Part shown: one piece after another, positions 10,112-23,504 of the stretch | How the letters are laid out: each line of letters begins with the position of its first letter | Numbering within the stretch: the stretch's first letter is position 1 | Assembly (NCBI GenBank): GCA_003279655.1 | Contig: QCHI01000015.1 | Coordinates: forward strand, 1 to 35,331 | Origin: Prochlorococcus sp. AG-402-A21 | Lineage (GTDB): Bacteria > Cyanobacteriota > Cyanobacteriia > PCC-6307 > Cyanobiaceae | DNA length: 35,331 bases | Reading direction: 5' to 3' | Made by a program: the position numbers and the translations under genes | The notes under the pieces: model-generated | Databases searched by the model: none | What the model saw: only the letters and a program-made list of their open reading frames with translations | Told to the model about the DNA's origin: nothing

Positions 10112-10444
10112 ATGGAAGACCAAATTAATGCCGCCGAAAAAAGCACATCTATTTCTGCCGAATTTTGTCAATGGTCAGGAGCTTTATTTGGTATTTTGTT
10201 CGGGATAGGTTTTTTCTTGACGGAGGTTCAAAAGAACGACTTAAAATCTTTCCCTTGGTGGAAGCCAATCACTGCTCTTGTCGCCGGAGCAGCGGTTTCA
10301 GCTCATGGTAGCAATGTTGTTAATAATAAAAGAACTGCAGAATTAACTGCTTTGTTAGTGAGGTCAACTAACAGCGCTTCTGAGTTGCCTATAGCAAAGT
10401 CACCAGAATATTCTGATCTTCTGGAGGACTCTGATAATCAATGA
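10112..10444 (+). CDS. Small membrane protein, 110 aa
   Basis: Polar N-terminus (1-18), then hydrophobic segments at about 22-38 (WSGALFGILFGIGFFL) and 50-66 (WKPITALVAGAAVSAHG), separated by a charged loop with a PWWKP motif. A soluble tail of about 40 residues ends in acidic Ser/Glu/Asp. The two-helix hairpin with a cytoplasmic tail fits a small inner- or thylakoid-membrane protein. Codon use is less AT-rich than its neighbours, suggesting a maintained gene. Function unknown. Confidence 0.7.
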   Translation: MEDQINAAEKSTSISAEFCQWSGALFGILFGIGFFLTEVQKNDLKSFPWWKPITALVAGAAVSAHGSNVVNNKRTAELTALLVRSTNSASELPIAKSPEYSDLLEDSDNQ

Positions 10445-10591: not shown

Positions 10592-10780
10592 CTAGAAATG
10601 CACTCTTTGTGGTTGAGCTTGATAAGAACAGATACCAAATTGTAAACACTCCATTTCTTCATCGATGTTTGATGGACGCTTTGAAAAGCTAAGCCTTTCA
10701 GATAGTTGACTAAGAACTAGTCGAGCAGCATTTTCTGCAGCCTCTGTAGTTAATTGAGCAAAGCGATTTCCGTAGGACAT
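10592..10780 (-). CDS. ECLQFGIC small protein A, 62 aa
   Basis: A variable N-terminal helix (MSYGNRFAQL, then AARLVLSQLSERL) leads to an acidic stretch, the core EMECLQFGICS and an 11-residue tail ending RVHF. The same ECLQFGIC core occurs in the proteins at 11186-11353 and 12671-12853, whose N-termini and tails differ. The two Cys are five residues apart and could form a disulfide, thioether or metal site. The ATG at 10780 is chosen over GTG 10798 because it lies at the same distance from the shared leader element (10803-10857) as in the other two genes. Function unknown; not a family I recognise. Confidence 0.75.
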   Translation of the reverse strand: MSYGNRFAQLTTEAAENAARLVLSQLSERLSFSKRPSNIDEEMECLQFGICSYQAQPQRVHF

Positions 10781-10802
10781 AGGAGGTCGAAGATCCACAA
10801 TT

Positions 10803-10857
10803 TATTTCTACTCCCATGGGGTGAATGATCCCTAGAGAATAAACACTTAAGTATTTA
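10803..10857 (-). promoter_or_regulatory. Shared promoter/leader element, copy A
   Basis: Read on the minus strand: TAAATACTTAAGTGTTT, then TCTCTAG, then after about 20 bases GAGTAGAAAT, 23 bases before the chosen start of ECLQFGIC protein A. The same ordered blocks precede proteins B and C. The TAAATACT block may be the -10 region and the rest a transcribed leader; the start site is inferred. Confidence 0.65.
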
Positions 10858-11030
10858 GGCTGTCTCAGTAATCAATGGTTAGCCTCTCGAAATTTTACAT
10901 TTTAATAAACTTATTTTTATGGAAATTCTTTGAAGATTTTACGTGAGGCATACAACATTTTAATTGTTGTAGAGATTGGTTTTTTTAGATTATTAGGTTT
11001 AATAGATTGAAAATTAAGTGAACCTGATTG

Positions 11031-11171
11031 ATGAGTGGTGATAACCTGCTTTCTCATTTGCCAGTAAAATTCTACTCTGATGAAATGACGGAAACCAAAA
11101 AGATCATTTATCTAGAACGAAAATTTCAAGAATTAGATGAGTTTATTGAAAATATTCCTGAAGTGGCATAG
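11031..11171 (+). CDS. MSGDNLL small protein, 46 aa (copy 1 of 2)
   Basis: ATG 11031 to TAG 11171. It begins MSGDNLLSHLPVKFYSDEMT followed by ETKKII and an acidic helix ending IPEVA. The gene at 30816-30986 begins MSGDNLLGEQPLKFYSEEVT followed by ETKIEL, so 15 of the first 23 positions are the same with conservative changes between. This paralogy, rather than length, supports the call. The family is not recognised. It lies convergent with ECLQFGIC protein B and close to protein A. Confidence 0.7.
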   Translation: MSGDNLLSHLPVKFYSDEMTETKKIIYLERKFQELDEFIENIPEVA

Positions 11172-11185
11172 TCCTGAATTTATTT

Positions 11186-11353
11186 TTATCCAAAATACAA
11201 CTCTTCTGGTCTAGGTGATTGTACTTGCACAGTACAAATTCCAAATTGTAAGCATTCCTGTTCCTCATCTTTTCGTAGTTTTTCCGTTTGACTTTGACTT
11301 AGGAATAATGCTTGGATATTGTTAATTAAAGGCCTGAATGGATTAATAGACAT
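11186..11353 (-). CDS. ECLQFGIC small protein B, 55 aa
   Basis: Start ATG 11353 is fixed by a perfect Shine-Dalgarno AAGGAGG six bases upstream; the in-frame ATG 11374 would place that site inside the gene. The protein has an N-terminal helix (MSINPFRPLINNIQALFLSQ), a charged linker (KLRKDEEQ), the core ECLQFGIC and a Pro-rich tail ending ELYFG. It shares only the core and the upstream element with A and C. The short hydrophobic N-part could be a leader or a membrane-associating helix. Function unknown. Confidence 0.8.
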   Translation of the reverse strand: MSINPFRPLINNIQALFLSQSQTEKLRKDEEQECLQFGICTVQVQSPRPEELYFG

Positions 11354-11379
11354 AATAACCTCCTTAATTACCATCTATA

Positions 11380-11435
11380 ATCTCTACTCTAATTGGTAGC
11401 AAAAAACTAGAGAGTAAACCCCAAAGTATTTATAC
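11380..11435 (-). promoter_or_regulatory. Shared promoter/leader element, copy B
   Basis: Minus strand: GTATAAATACTTTGGGGTTT, then CTCTCTAG, then after about 20 bases GAGTAGAGAT, 26 bases before ATG 11353. The same block order and spacing as copies A and C, with changes mainly between blocks. Confidence 0.65.
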
Positions 11436-11511
11436 GCCTTTACAGGGTGTGAAGAGGACGTTTTAAGCATTAAATGATGTGACTAGATTTAACAATATCT
11501 AAAGATACCGA

Positions 11512-11973
11512 ATGATCAAAACAATAATCAGAGCAATGTATTCTGCTTTTATTTCTATTGTCTTAATCTCAATTATTCTAGCTGGCTGGACTTGTTTTGC
11601 TTTTATTTCACAACCCAGAAAATCTGGTGAATTAATTAATGTGATACAAGATATGTATGAAAGTCAGAAGTCAGTAATCATAGACGTTGTTGATCTTTCG
11701 AAATTACTAATAAAGGATTCAAGTGAAAGAATTGCTAGTGAAGATAATAATCTTTTAACAGAATCAGAATTGCTGAATCAAGAAGACAAGTCTCTTTTTG
11801 ATGAGCCGACAATTCTAGATGATAATGGTAATAATCCTCTCGGGATAGTTATTGAACCATCTTTACCTGAAGTAAGCGCAGAAAATTTGCCTGAAACAAG
11901 TGTCGGACCATTAGATAATGATCAGAGAGAGGTCTCTATGGATGAAATGGAATTAGGAATGGACATGAATTAA
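11512..11973 (+). CDS. N-terminally anchored acidic protein, 153 aa
   Basis: One transmembrane helix near the N-terminus (residues 12-34, IVLISIILAGWTCFAFI) is followed by a long acidic, low-complexity region rich in Glu, Asp, Asn, Ser and Leu (for example LLTESELLNQEDKSLF). The basic start suggests the N-terminus is in the cytoplasm and the acidic part outside. It heads a run of three same-strand genes (12032 and 12198) that all encode exported or anchored acidic peptides. Function unknown. Confidence 0.65.
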   Translation: MIKTIIRAMYSAFISIVLISIILAGWTCFAFISQPRKSGELINVIQDMYESQKSVIIDVVDLSKLLIKDSSERIASEDNNLLTESELLNQEDKSLFDEPTILDDNGNNPLGIVIEPSLPEVSAENLPETSVGPLDNDQREVSMDEMELGMDMN

Positions 11974-12031
11974 GTCAATTAAACGAACTTTTTGATAAGG
12001 CTTTAATATTGACTTGCTTCCAATTTTTCTT

Positions 12032-12187
12032 ATGAATAAAGTTCTATCTTTAGTATTTACCCTTTCTGTTATGACAGTGCCTGTCTTGGCATGGGGTGAA
12101 GGTGGATGTTCTTTATCTAATAAGAATAATCCAAGTCAAGATGAGACTCTTGAGCAAGTAGATAGTTCCGATTCTTCCAAAAGGTAA
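12032..12187 (+). CDS. Small secreted protein, 51 aa
   Basis: ATG 12032 to TAA 12187. Signal peptide of about 20 residues (MNKVLSLVFTLSVMTVPVLA, cleavage before WGEGG), then a polar mature part with a single Cys and many Ser, Asp, Glu and Gln. It lies ten bases before the next signal-peptide gene and probably shares its transcript. Function unknown. Confidence 0.6.
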   Translation: MNKVLSLVFTLSVMTVPVLAWGEGGCSLSNKNNPSQDETLEQVDSSDSSKR

Positions 12188-12197
12188 TTGCAAGAAA

Positions 12198-12449
12198 ATG
12201 AATGTCTCATTGCTAATTCGAATTGTTTCTTTCTCTCTTGGTCTTCTTTTGATTGTATGTCCTGCGTCTCTTAATGCAGATGAAATAGATTCATCGCCTA
12301 TAGAATCAGACTCTATTGAAATCGTTCAAGCTCCTAGCCAAATGACAGAAAAGCAAATGAACGATCTTTTTGGTGAAGATCCCTATTTAGGCCAAACTTC
12401 ATATCTTCAGTCTCCGGATGGCTTTAGTCAAAGAGACAAATCAAAATAA
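12198..12449 (+). CDS. Small secreted acidic protein, 83 aa
   Basis: Signal peptide residues 1-27 (IVSFSLGLLLIVCPASLNA, cleavage before DEIDS). The mature part is acidic with repeated 'S-x-E/D-I' and contains QMNDLFGEDPYLGQ and a polar C-terminus. The pattern 'signal peptide plus acidic disordered tail' is shared with the two genes upstream, suggesting three related exported products. Function unknown. Confidence 0.65.
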   Translation: MNVSLLIRIVSFSLGLLLIVCPASLNADEIDSSPIESDSIEIVQAPSQMTEKQMNDLFGEDPYLGQTSYLQSPDGFSQRDKSK

Positions 12450-12587
12450 TGAGACTTATATTATCGAAAGAATCTAAGGAAAGTGTGGATAAAAAATTCT
12501 CGTATCAAAAAAACAATGTCTTTCAAGTAAAGCCCTAGTTGATCCTCCTACAATTGCCTCTATATTTTGAATTGGTTTTCCGTGACT

Positions 12588-12644
12588 GTATAAATACTTA
12601 AGTGTTCCTCTCCATAGATTTCTTAAACCAATATGAGTAGAAAT
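12588..12644 (+). promoter_or_regulatory. Shared promoter/leader element, copy C
   Basis: Plus strand: GTATAAATACTTAAGTGTTC, then CTCTCCATAG, then GAGTAGAAAT, 26 bases before ATG 12671. It matches copies A and B in order and spacing although the gene faces the other way, which excludes a simple tandem-repeat artefact. Confidence 0.65.
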
Positions 12645-12670
12645 TAAGCAGGTTGTTTAGATTTCTAACC

Positions 12671-12853
12671 ATGCCATTCTCAAAGCAATTATTTGACAAT
12701 TTTTCTGGGGTTTCCATTCAAGGGAATGAAATGTCTGAGTTGTTTTCTAATTACAAGCCAAAATATGATGATGATGTGATTGAGTGCTTGCAATTTGGTA
12801 TCTGTTCTACGCGTCCTGCCCCTCCAAGGGAAATACCTTATTTTCATTTTTGA
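12671..12853 (+). CDS. ECLQFGIC small protein C, 60 aa
   Basis: ATG 12671 is preferred to TTG 12653 because its distance from the shared leader element agrees with copies A and B. The N-terminal part (MPFSKQLFDNF, then MSELFSNYKPKYDDD) is unlike those of A and B. It leads into VIECLQFGICS and a Pro/Arg tail ending IPYFHF. All three tails end with a cluster of aromatic residues. Cys-x5-Cys is invariant. Unknown function; could be a precursor peptide, a regulator of a membrane complex or a metal site. Confidence 0.75.
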   Translation: MPFSKQLFDNFSGVSIQGNEMSELFSNYKPKYDDDVIECLQFGICSTRPAPPREIPYFHF

Positions 12854-14507: not shown

Positions 14508-16202
14508 TCATGAGGAACAGCTGTAATGGGAAATCCCACCGGCTCTAAAGAATTTCTTGGGCTTGAGTCTGTCGTATTTTTTCTGTACCTCTAATGATTG
14601 TTCTTCGTAAGGTTTGTCTAAAACAGCTTGTAGTTCCATTATGAGACCATAGTCACCCTTCTCTGCCATTTCGTATGCTGGTGTGATGAGCCATTCCCGC
14701 CATGTGTATTTTGGATTAATGCGTTTCATTTTTGCTGATATTTCATTTTGATCACCTGTGTTAACTACCTGCTCCCGCCATCTTTGTAGCCAACTGATCC
14801 ATTTTGTCTCAATCTCCTTTGAAATTGGTAGATAGAAACTATCTTTTAAGTCCTTAGGTTTTTTTGGTATACTTGAAAGTTTTCGGAAAAAGATTGTGTA
14901 ATCGACCTTTGTGTGAACCATGAGCTGTAGCATTTCATTTACTAGAGGTGCGTCATAGGTGACTAAGCCTAGTTTCTTTGTCCACATGTTCTCCATTTTC
15001 TGATTCATTACTGTAGTGAATCCATCGCGGATGTTATCTAGCCTGTCCAGTGCCTTAGCGTTTCCGTTAAGCAGAGGTCGAATCGCCCCCCAAAACATTT
15101 GATAATTTGCTTCGGCAGCAACTTGTTGGTTAAAGAACGCAAAATGTTCACCACCTCCTGTCCAAGGTTGGAATCTTGGATCGAAAAGTTCACAAAAACC
15201 AAATGGACCGTAATCGAGGGTGAAACCTCCTGCAGCGCAATTGTCACTGTTGAAATTACCTTGGCAGTAGCCAATCCGCATCCAATTAGCTACTAATGAT
15301 GTGAGTCGTTCTCTGAACGAATTTGCGAGCTCAACGACTTGATCGCTAAAGCTCAGGGTCGGATCAATTTCCTCCTTGTAATTTCTTACGATTAAGTGCA
15401 TCACAATCATCTCGAGCTCTTTCATGGCATCTTGATGCTCATTGTTGCGTACTCGTCGTGCAAAGAGTTCTATCTGACCCACCCGTAAAAATGATGGTGC
15501 GACTCGTGTTGAGATTGCAGCTGGTGTTTCTACCAATATGTCTGGATCGATTGAACTGGAGCCTTTTGTATACCAAGGCCTGCGGACTGTTTCAGATTTA
15601 GAGACATATAGTGTGAGAGATCGTGATGTTGGTACTCCGAGTGACTGCATATATTCCTGTGCTAAAAACTCACGAACACTTGAACGAAGCACTGCTCGTC
15701 CATCAGCTCCTCTGCAGTATGGTGTTGGTCCTCCTCCTTTAAGTTGCATCTCCCATCTTTTGCCATTAAAGAGACCTTCAAATACTGAAATAGCTCTCCC
15801 ATCTCCATAGCCGTTACCTGTCCCAAATGGACATTGCTGAATATATTCAGTTCCATAGATAGATAGTGCGTAACCGGTAGCCCAACCAACTGGTCGCATC
15901 GGAGTTGTTGCAACACTTATGTCGCCGGAGAATAGACGACGAAAAAGCTCATCCAGAGCAAGTTCCTGACTCAAGCCTAACTCGTTAAATAATATTTTAC
16001 TGTGAGCGACATATTCTGGCTTTGGAATTGCTGTTGGAGTGACAGGTACATAGTGACCAGAAAAGACCTCTCTTGTTAGGTGGTCGTCACCATCATCTGT
16101 TGCCTGAGGATCAGATTCGAGAGAATCCATGAATGAGTAGTCAGCTTGTTTCGCAAACTCAGAGAAAGTTCTAGTTGTCTGCATAGCTTTAGTACTGCTC
16201 AT
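14508..16202 (-). CDS. selO: SelO protein adenylyltransferase (YdiU/UPF0061)
   Basis: SelO is a pseudokinase-fold enzyme that transfers AMP from ATP to Ser, Thr or Tyr of target proteins and is linked to redox stress. Seen here: the nucleotide-binding block [20 protein letters not shown] (about 153-172, Lys155), [20 protein letters not shown] after it, the metal/catalytic block GNFNSDN (315-321) and TLDYGPFGF (328-336). The C-terminus ends SCSS, with Cys562 third from the end, where eukaryotic SelO carries selenocysteine. The 564 aa length is usual for the longer SelO class, which has QGNFNSDN in place of HGVxNTDN. G+C is higher than nearby genes. It stands alone, starting at ATG 16202. Confidence 0.95.
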
Positions 16203-22820: not shown

Positions 22821-22985
22821 AGCTTAAAAATAATTAGCAGAATTCTCTTTTAAGTTGGTATTTAAGAAAAAAAGATTTTGAAATTTGAGTATATACCACT
22901 AGATAGTTTTGTATCCAGATGAACTACACGTGCCATCCATGCATAACATAATAGTTTTTGTAGCAACCGCTACCAAAACGTTCAA

Positions 22986-23040
22986 CTCGTTACATTGCGA
23001 GCCGCATCTCGATTTAAGCCAAGGAACGGGGACTTAAATC
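22986..23040 (+). promoter_or_regulatory. Structured 5' region of the DUF4278 gene
   Basis: Two inverted repeats precede the gene: CTCG/CGAG (22986-22989 with 22998-23001) and a perfect 8-base pair GATTTAAG/CTTAAATC (23011-23018 with 23033-23040) enclosing a G/C-rich 14-base loop. The block is much less AT-rich than its surroundings, ends 19 bases before the start and is followed by a GGAG. It could be a leader RNA controlling translation; no known riboswitch was recognised. Confidence 0.5.
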
Positions 23041-23339: not shown

Positions 23340-23504
23340 TTAGCCCCCGTAAACTTTGCAAGTAGATGCTGTTGGATGATTACTACATTCTTTTTCCCAA
23401 AACTCATCTCTAGTTTCATTGGGAACCGTGTAAGAGAAGTCATGCATTGTTCGAATATCACTTAATGCATTTTTGATTATGTTCAAAGGAGTTTTTAGTT
23501 TCAT
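23340..23504 (-). CDS. Small protein with CP12-like C-terminal motif, 54 aa
   Basis: ATG 23504 to TAA 23340. It reads MKLKTPLNIIKNALSDIRTM, then HDFSYTVPNETRDEFWEKEC and SNHPTASTCKVYGG. The end 'E-C-x-x-H/N-P-x-A-x-x-C-K-V-Y' resembles the C-terminal redox loop of CP12 (Cys pair, Pro, Val-Tyr), the disulfide switch that ties GAPDH to phosphoribulokinase. The N-terminal CP12 signature (AWD-x-VEEL) is missing, so a role in Calvin-cycle control is only a possibility. It converges with the DUF4278 gene. Confidence 0.6.
   Translation of the reverse strand: MKLKTPLNIIKNALSDIRTMHDFSYTVPNETRDEFWEKECSNHPTASTCKVYGG

Follow-up and report, generated by a model that had tools for sequence, protein, structure and literature searches.

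A paralogous family of small proteins built around a two-cysteine core, apparently undescribed, in Prochlorococcus-type genomes

We analyzed a contig of Prochlorococcus sp. AG-402-A21 (QCHI01000015.1, assembly GCA_003279655.1), hereafter the window, which is the whole 35,331-nucleotide (nt) contig (C15) of a 1.67-Mb genome that is 96% complete. Its open reading frames (ORFs) and their translations include three small proteins that share the core ECLQFGIC. Member A, of 62 amino acids (aa; MSYGNRFAQLTTEAAENAARLVL...ECLQFGICSYQAQPQRVHF), lies on the reverse strand at 10592..10780, and the codon pattern of the core places its core codons at 10628..10651. Member B (55 aa; MSINPFRPLINNIQ...ECLQFGICTVQVQSPRPEELYFG) lies on the same strand at 11186..11353, with core codons at 11234..11257, and member C (60 aa; MPFSKQLFDNFSG...ECLQFGICSTRPAPPREIPYFHF) lies on the forward strand at 12671..12853, with core codons at 12782..12805. 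An earlier sequence-only reading of this DNA had reported three such ORFs, each with ECLQFGIC near the C-terminus followed by Ser or Thr, and both their positions and this arrangement were borne out. Its further statement that all three tails end in aromatic residues fails for B, which ends in LYFG. Each protein contains two cysteines, spaced C-x5-C. Translation of A may begin at GTG 10798 instead of ATG 10780.

A codon-pattern scan for CLQFGIC in the source genome returned three matches, all in the window, and none with the reversed control; the ECLQFGIC pattern was matched in 31 of 41 congeneric genomes, again with no control match. These control scans led us to reject a chance origin of the core. 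The looser pattern C-x2-F-G-x-C occurred at 12 places in the source genome against 3 control matches and is therefore non-specific by itself. Its places include the three window genes and a fourth family member (CLQFGNC, contig C13), and the others, which lie in short or dissimilar frames, are seemingly chance matches.

The fourth gene, which is very similar and contains five cysteines, defines a class D beside the classes A, B, and C formed by the orthologs of each window gene. We compared the ratio of nonsynonymous to synonymous change (dN/dS) among the eight core codons, the N-terminal part, and the tail, using 24 A, 23 B, 28 C, and 30 D sequences. Core ratios were 0.009 for A, 0 for B, 0.008 for C, and 0.032 for D. 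The corresponding values were 0.22, 0.44, 0.24, and 0.09 for the N-terminal part and 0.62, 0.36, 0.19, and 0.10 for the tail. In the core, dS was 0.42-1.02 with dN near 0, and synonymous change occurred at all eight codons among the ECLQFGIC matches listed in the genus. The strongest selection thus falls on the core, at the protein level, and the earlier suggestion of selection on this stretch is strongly supported by core ratios of 0.00-0.03 against 0.09-0.44 in the N-terminal part. These same values contradict conservation of the core at the RNA level. That an overlapping RNA or DNA function, and not the protein, preserves the core is therefore extremely improbable, even though a short conserved stretch close to a conserved non-coding leader (described below) would suit such an explanation.

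Most loci were collected via the exact core, which biases counts of its conservation. As a check, we inspected 40 of the 110 stop-free matches from high-light strains, spread over the ranking and found by a profile that did not demand the core; 37 of them retain E-C-[MI]-Q-F-G-I-C. In the core-biased alignment the Cys pair is present in 56 of 56 sequences, and 171 distinct ORFs collected with the same bias carry ECLQFGIC (86), ECMQFGIC (57), ECLQFGNC (18), another form (8), or no recognized core (2). Additional paralogs found through their leader have ECLQFGFC, ECLHFGFC, or DCLTYGFC, and KCLQFGNC, ECLQFANC, and ECLQFCIC occur among other relatives; a D-like ORF in locus L120 ends in ECLQFDNG. 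The core had been called invariant, which is true locally, where it is identical in the three window genes, but not across relatives. Random variation within the core among homologs, named in the earlier reading as a refuting observation, was found in part, with one group of open relatives having lost the core.

We best read the window genes as paralogs of one family, seen here only in Prochlorococcus-type genomes; the sequence-only reading had noted neither this paralogy nor the upstream leader described below. The matching loci hold the orthologs of A, B, and C, normally in one syntenic cluster, with class D elsewhere, and some ORFs are hybrids that begin like D and end like C. Over the whole length, core included, the other two window proteins are 53% and 39% identical to the first. 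The N-terminal halves had been described as dissimilar, and when compared directly as profiles with the core removed they are, with probabilities of 2.5% for A-B, 0.3% for A-C, and 0.2% for C-B. Yet relatives link them: with H denoting a group of mostly high-light members, and 16 unclassed sequences left out, probabilities were 97% for H-D, 96% for D-C, 92% for H-B, 78% for H-C, and 46% for D-B. The link is weakest for A (28% with H, 13% with D). B, C, and D are thus joined through the N-terminal halves of their relatives, and A mainly by the core, the linker, and the first residues. A fifth paralog in the source genome (L263:8528-8734, reverse strand; core ECLSYGFC) is seemingly frame-broken when compared with open copies in L112 and L114.

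The range of the family is narrow. When the D protein was searched against 400 genomes of the taxonomic family, 38 gave matches, of which 37 belong to the same genus and one to a second genus. Scanning contigs for EC[LM]QFGIC gave 187 stretches, 167 of them relatives; in a set of 80 of these relatives, all were titled Prochlorococcus except one 'uncultured Synechococcaceae'. Searching 386 genomes across the phylum with a profile returned 27 matches at E <= 0.1. Fifteen of these had E values under 1e-6 and came exclusively from genera g1, g18, and g4, and the remaining 12 (E 0.008-0.1) seem to be chance matches. In the high-light genus g18, 110 of 200 genomes were matched (41 of the 66 good ones), with 1-3 copies each.

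These proteins have a common architecture: a variable N-terminal segment, an acidic linker, the core [ED]C[LMI][QHT][FY]G[IFN]C, and a tail, which in class C and the high-light members approximates [IV]P[YF]FH[YF]. Judged by eye, the N-terminal segment is likely to form an amphipathic helix in many members. An AlphaFold2 prediction from 56 sequences gave a predicted local distance difference test score of 63.6 and a predicted template modeling score of 0.26, so that no fold can be claimed; its most confident part includes a short helix at residues 34-42. A disordered protein with a binding segment would be consistent with this outcome. One could instead imagine a structural metal microdomain, perhaps dimeric, in which the core Cys pair, an N-terminal Cys and His, and a tail His bind zinc or iron constitutively. 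The motif M[ST]CGNPxKH in class D and many high-light members, together with FH[YF] in many tails, would supply such ligands, but the N-terminal Cys is absent from window members A, B, and C and often replaced by Tyr in high-light members, D has no tail His, and the core pair alone is general. We consider this arrangement unlikely.

None of the three window proteins matched a Pfam family at E <= 1, and searches of NCBIfam, PHROG, and the Protein Data Bank (PDB) likewise gave no family match, the sole NCBIfam match, at 14.6 bits against a cut-off of 234, being noise. These searches rule out a domain described in those databases. In the literature, we found no paper containing the core letters or naming the family in its title or the start of its abstract, with subscription papers and supplements lying outside this search, and the available part of PMC2518516 does not describe the family. 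The statement that no described family bears this signature therefore stands for Pfam, NCBIfam, PHROGs, PDB, and a literature text search for the core letters, and the family is apparently undescribed.

The sequence-only reading had also raised the possibility of a modified peptide. In such a scheme the proteins would be precursors, and the fixed core would itself become the product, either a modified peptide or a small redox cofactor, much as with mycofactocin and pyrroloquinoline quinone. A fixed short Cys/Phe/Gly core in several paralogous short ORFs would fit. On the other hand, the source genome has no match to LanC-like (PF05147) or YcaO (PF02624) enzymes, with radical SAM enzymes outside that search, and no maturase was matched among ten window proteins scanned, of which SelO alone matched Pfam. 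Moreover, the core is followed by a tail, and the family combines a variable N-terminus with a fixed core, opposite to precursor peptides, in which a conserved N-terminal leader usually precedes a more variable core. The modified-peptide proposal is thus not supported, and we regard it as very unlikely.

Genes A, B, C, and D are each preceded by a similar stretch of ~60 nt, (T)ATAAATACTT..GTG....C(T/A)TAG....GAGTAGAAAT. We built a sequence-only model of it (R1) from 29 leader copies, one of them mistyped. In the window, R1 matched the leader of A at 10792..10859 on the reverse strand (54.1 bits, E 4.8e-16) and that of B at 11369..11435 on the reverse strand (46.8 bits, E 9.3e-14), both outside the training set, and the leader of C, a training sequence, at 12588..12656 on the forward strand (60 bits, E 7e-18). 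Across the source genome, R1 scores the leaders of C, A, D, and B highest; match 5 precedes a seemingly frame-broken paralog (contig C3), matches 6, 7, and 9 precede structured RNAs, and match 8 precedes no recognized ORF. R1 gave 59 matches in 20 syntenic loci, some of them in training, and further ones in 25 other loci; matches outside training include those in L151 and L154 (E below 1e-10) and in L148. Most genes of class A (24 of 29), B (21 of 22), C (24 of 29), and D (23 of 31) have the hexamer AATACT within 120 nt of the start codon, as do 14 of 59 other members, some of the latter by chance. A conserved secondary structure of the leader was rejected: RNAalifold found no such structure across the full set of 93 sequences, and by class it gave structures in three of five, which were weak and differed from one another. 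A -10 box and start site could not be located within the leader. We infer that the leader of classes A-D is probably a common promoter or operator.

Some leaders precede a structured RNA, with support from covariation, of the form GGAGTC..GCACTT-(variable)-AAGTG..GACTC AAAGGGG..CCCCTT. In eight such sequences, 95.6% of the alignment cells pair, against 32-54% when slid, and four pairs change on both sides (shuffled mean 1.1), with the number of pair types not above shuffles. Among 52 matches fitted by a model, and hence in an alignment that leans to the structure, 94.5% of cells pair and 45 change on both sides (shuffled mean 11.1, a value of 45 being reached in 0 of 500 shuffles); seven pairs change on both sides, a count reached by 31 of 500 shuffles, and the pair types were reached by 427 of 500. 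The RNA occurs in 39 of 41 genomes of the genus, in up to nine copies, with no match in the window. Gene D is flanked by two copies in the source genome (C13:9084-9200 and C13:10457-10563), and further copies lie at C28:5141-5258 in the same genome and in L338-L367; among the 52 matches, copies downstream of gene D are mostly without leader. Near gene D, a form at ~9673 resembles the RNA by eye and has no model match. An Rfam scan of 15 loci left the RNA unmatched, returning only a tRNA and Yfr13. According to the accessible portion of PMC7368042, the small RNAs (sRNAs) Yfr106-108 of NATL2A have been validated, and the structured RNA may be one of them. In L326 (763-933, forward strand), the leader and structured RNA are followed by a 56-aa ORF without Cys (MTRKRDKIWTAIIATRQWFTKLF...), and the same start occurs in L318, L319, L320, and L322.

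Of the 52 matches, 27 have a leader match that ends where the RNA starts, among them 23 of the 30 main ones. A far-reaching possibility is an unseen regulon in low-light Prochlorococcus, in which one ~60-nt promoter or leader would start both the Cys-core microproteins and the multi-copy structured RNA, and a single signal (light, redox, or infection) would release peptide adaptors and regulatory RNA jointly with little need of classical regulatory proteins. Because the leader is present on just those 27 of 52 RNA matches and not on all paralogs, we lowered our estimate of this regulon and consider it unlikely. The expectation that the RNA would lie near high-light family members mostly failed: in the high-light genus it was detected in 16 of 200 genomes, with filters strict enough to discard weak matches. 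Among these 16 places, only that in genome G768 adjoins a family match, with L190 and L187 as additional cases.

In high-light strains the gene upstream of the family member often encodes a membrane microprotein of 53 aa that carries FCSKSxSDPYC close to its C-terminus (30 loci). Downstream comes an ORF from a third small family, which in its full form ends in YWxKEC..HPTN..C..YCD. ORFs that we presume to be of the hli type were matched in 24-26 of 58 high-light loci, with only a sub-threshold match to Chloroa_b-bind. Yfr11 lies upstream on the opposite strand, ~200 nt away, in 3 of 10 scanned loci. The accessible part of PMC2518516 reports that Yfr11 goes down on transfer to light and up with 3-(3,4-dichlorophenyl)-1,1-dimethylurea, that Yfr16 responds likewise but more weakly, and that Yfr16 lies at 657392..657529 in genomic island 2, near phage-induced genes. 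In G187, which we take as MED4, a match to the Yfr11 model at 657391-657529 coincides with Yfr16, and the family gene lies at 657929-658111, within an operon (G187:C1, ~657730-658271) of the membrane microprotein, the family member, and a third-family ORF without Cys tail; this operon adjoins Yfr16. Separately, a 54-aa ORF in the window at 23340-23504 on the reverse strand (MKLKTPLNIIKNALSDIRTMHDF...FWEKECSNHPTASTCKVYGG) is a member of a second family of small proteins with multiple paralogs, with 68 ORF matches in 33 sources; a member follows the ECMQFGIC gene in high-light strains, and a relative lies beside Hsp20 in cyanophage P-TIM68.

Such surroundings would suit a toxin-antitoxin-like or phage-response island cassette, in which the membrane microprotein, the small proteins, and the sRNA act together. 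The operon itself, the adjoining Yfr11 in some loci, the island position of the G187 copy near phage-induced genes (PMC2518516, accessible part), the cyanophage relative of the operon's following family, and the decay of the gene in part of the high-light genus could all be read this way. Against it, the window members sit in a stable syntenic block, and no viral relative of the Cys-core family was confirmed, a pattern scan of viral contigs and phage searches yielding none or E 2 or worse. We judge a cassette of this kind improbable.

Around the window genes, two conserved neighbor ORFs without Pfam match, of 110 aa (10112..10444, forward strand) and 153 aa (11512..11973, forward strand), are each present in 23 of 24 loci. 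The protein adenylyltransferase SelO (PF02696, E 1.6e-66) is encoded at 14508..16202 on the reverse strand, and its C-terminus ends in YSCSS. A Glutamine-II riboswitch (RF01704, 65.6 bits) lies at 22976-23038 on the forward strand upstream of a short ORF; the same riboswitch was found in 2 of 10 scanned loci with family members.

As the best reading, though with doubts that outweigh our confidence, we tentatively propose that the Cys-core proteins act as adaptors: microproteins expressed under certain conditions that dock on one common partner through a C-terminal module holding the thiol pair. In this proposal, the C-terminal module would be the docking segment for one conserved cellular partner, and the two core cysteines would form a reversible disulfide or a soft-metal site. 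The N-terminal part would give each paralog its own target or place, and through the common leader of A-D the paralogs would be raised together by a single signal, possibly light or redox state. In favor of the adaptor proposal we count the paralogy and range of the family, the protein-level selection on a core with normal synonymous change, the core retained in 37 of the 40 high-light matches, the predicted structure, the leader copies outside training, and the high-light surroundings with the membrane microprotein, hli-like genes, and Yfr11. Several observations weigh against the proposal. Tyr replaces the first core Cys in 3 of the 40 high-light matches inspected, and open D-like ORFs in L112, L113, L114, and L116 (MSCGKPLKHAQ...KNEVLQLGKAK or alike) have no core. 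The leader was found in none of eight loci of the D/C hybrid class (L117-L119, L145-L147, L150, and L152) and before none of the genes in the high-light loci tested. In the high-light genus, 22 of 132 matches contain in-frame stops and 90 of 200 genomes (25 of 66 good ones) are unmatched; the gene is decaying in part of this genus and is thus dispensable there. Finally, among the distinct cases of the third-family ORF listed, the Cys tail is present in 5 and absent from 11, which makes a shared Cys theme in the operon weak.

Although Prochlorococcus, a phototroph of huge abundance, has few regulatory proteins, its low-light strains retain several family members in which one short segment is strongly selected. 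Fixed while its flanks change, the core offers itself as bait for a partner common to the paralogs, and the leader ties the family genes to an unnamed structured RNA. This opens to testing a piece of the dark proteome in an organism of central ecological importance.

Among known systems, the Yfr11/Yfr16 sRNA (RF02363) adjoins some high-light members but is an RNA and no relative. Precursors of ribosomally synthesized and post-translationally modified peptides resemble the Cys-core family in their short genes and fixed Cys-containing C-terminal stretch; the family differs in its variable N-terminus, the tail after the core, and a genome without LanC-like or YcaO match. The conserved Cys pair expected of a thiol redox-switch microprotein is present in the 37 of 40 profile-found high-light matches, with the Tyr variants and the core-less relatives as exceptions. 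CP12, a small redox-switch protein of the Calvin cycle, is likewise a short cyanobacterial protein with conserved cysteines. The accessible part of PMC5126843, which names CP12 as a model for small proteins with Cys pairs, gives it two such pairs, in contrast to the single C-x5-C pair of the window proteins; these did not match the CP12 profile, and their family is multi-paralog and seen only in Prochlorococcus-type genomes. The same part of that source considers micro-proteins shorter than 80 aa, whose conserved Cys it discusses as redox or metal sites, and describes NsiR6, which has two Cys pairs, one of them CPVC, and 63 homologs over the phylum. The Cys-core family is like NsiR6 in comprising proteins under 80 aa with conserved Cys, and differs from it in being multi-copy, narrow in range, and built on a C-x5-C pair.

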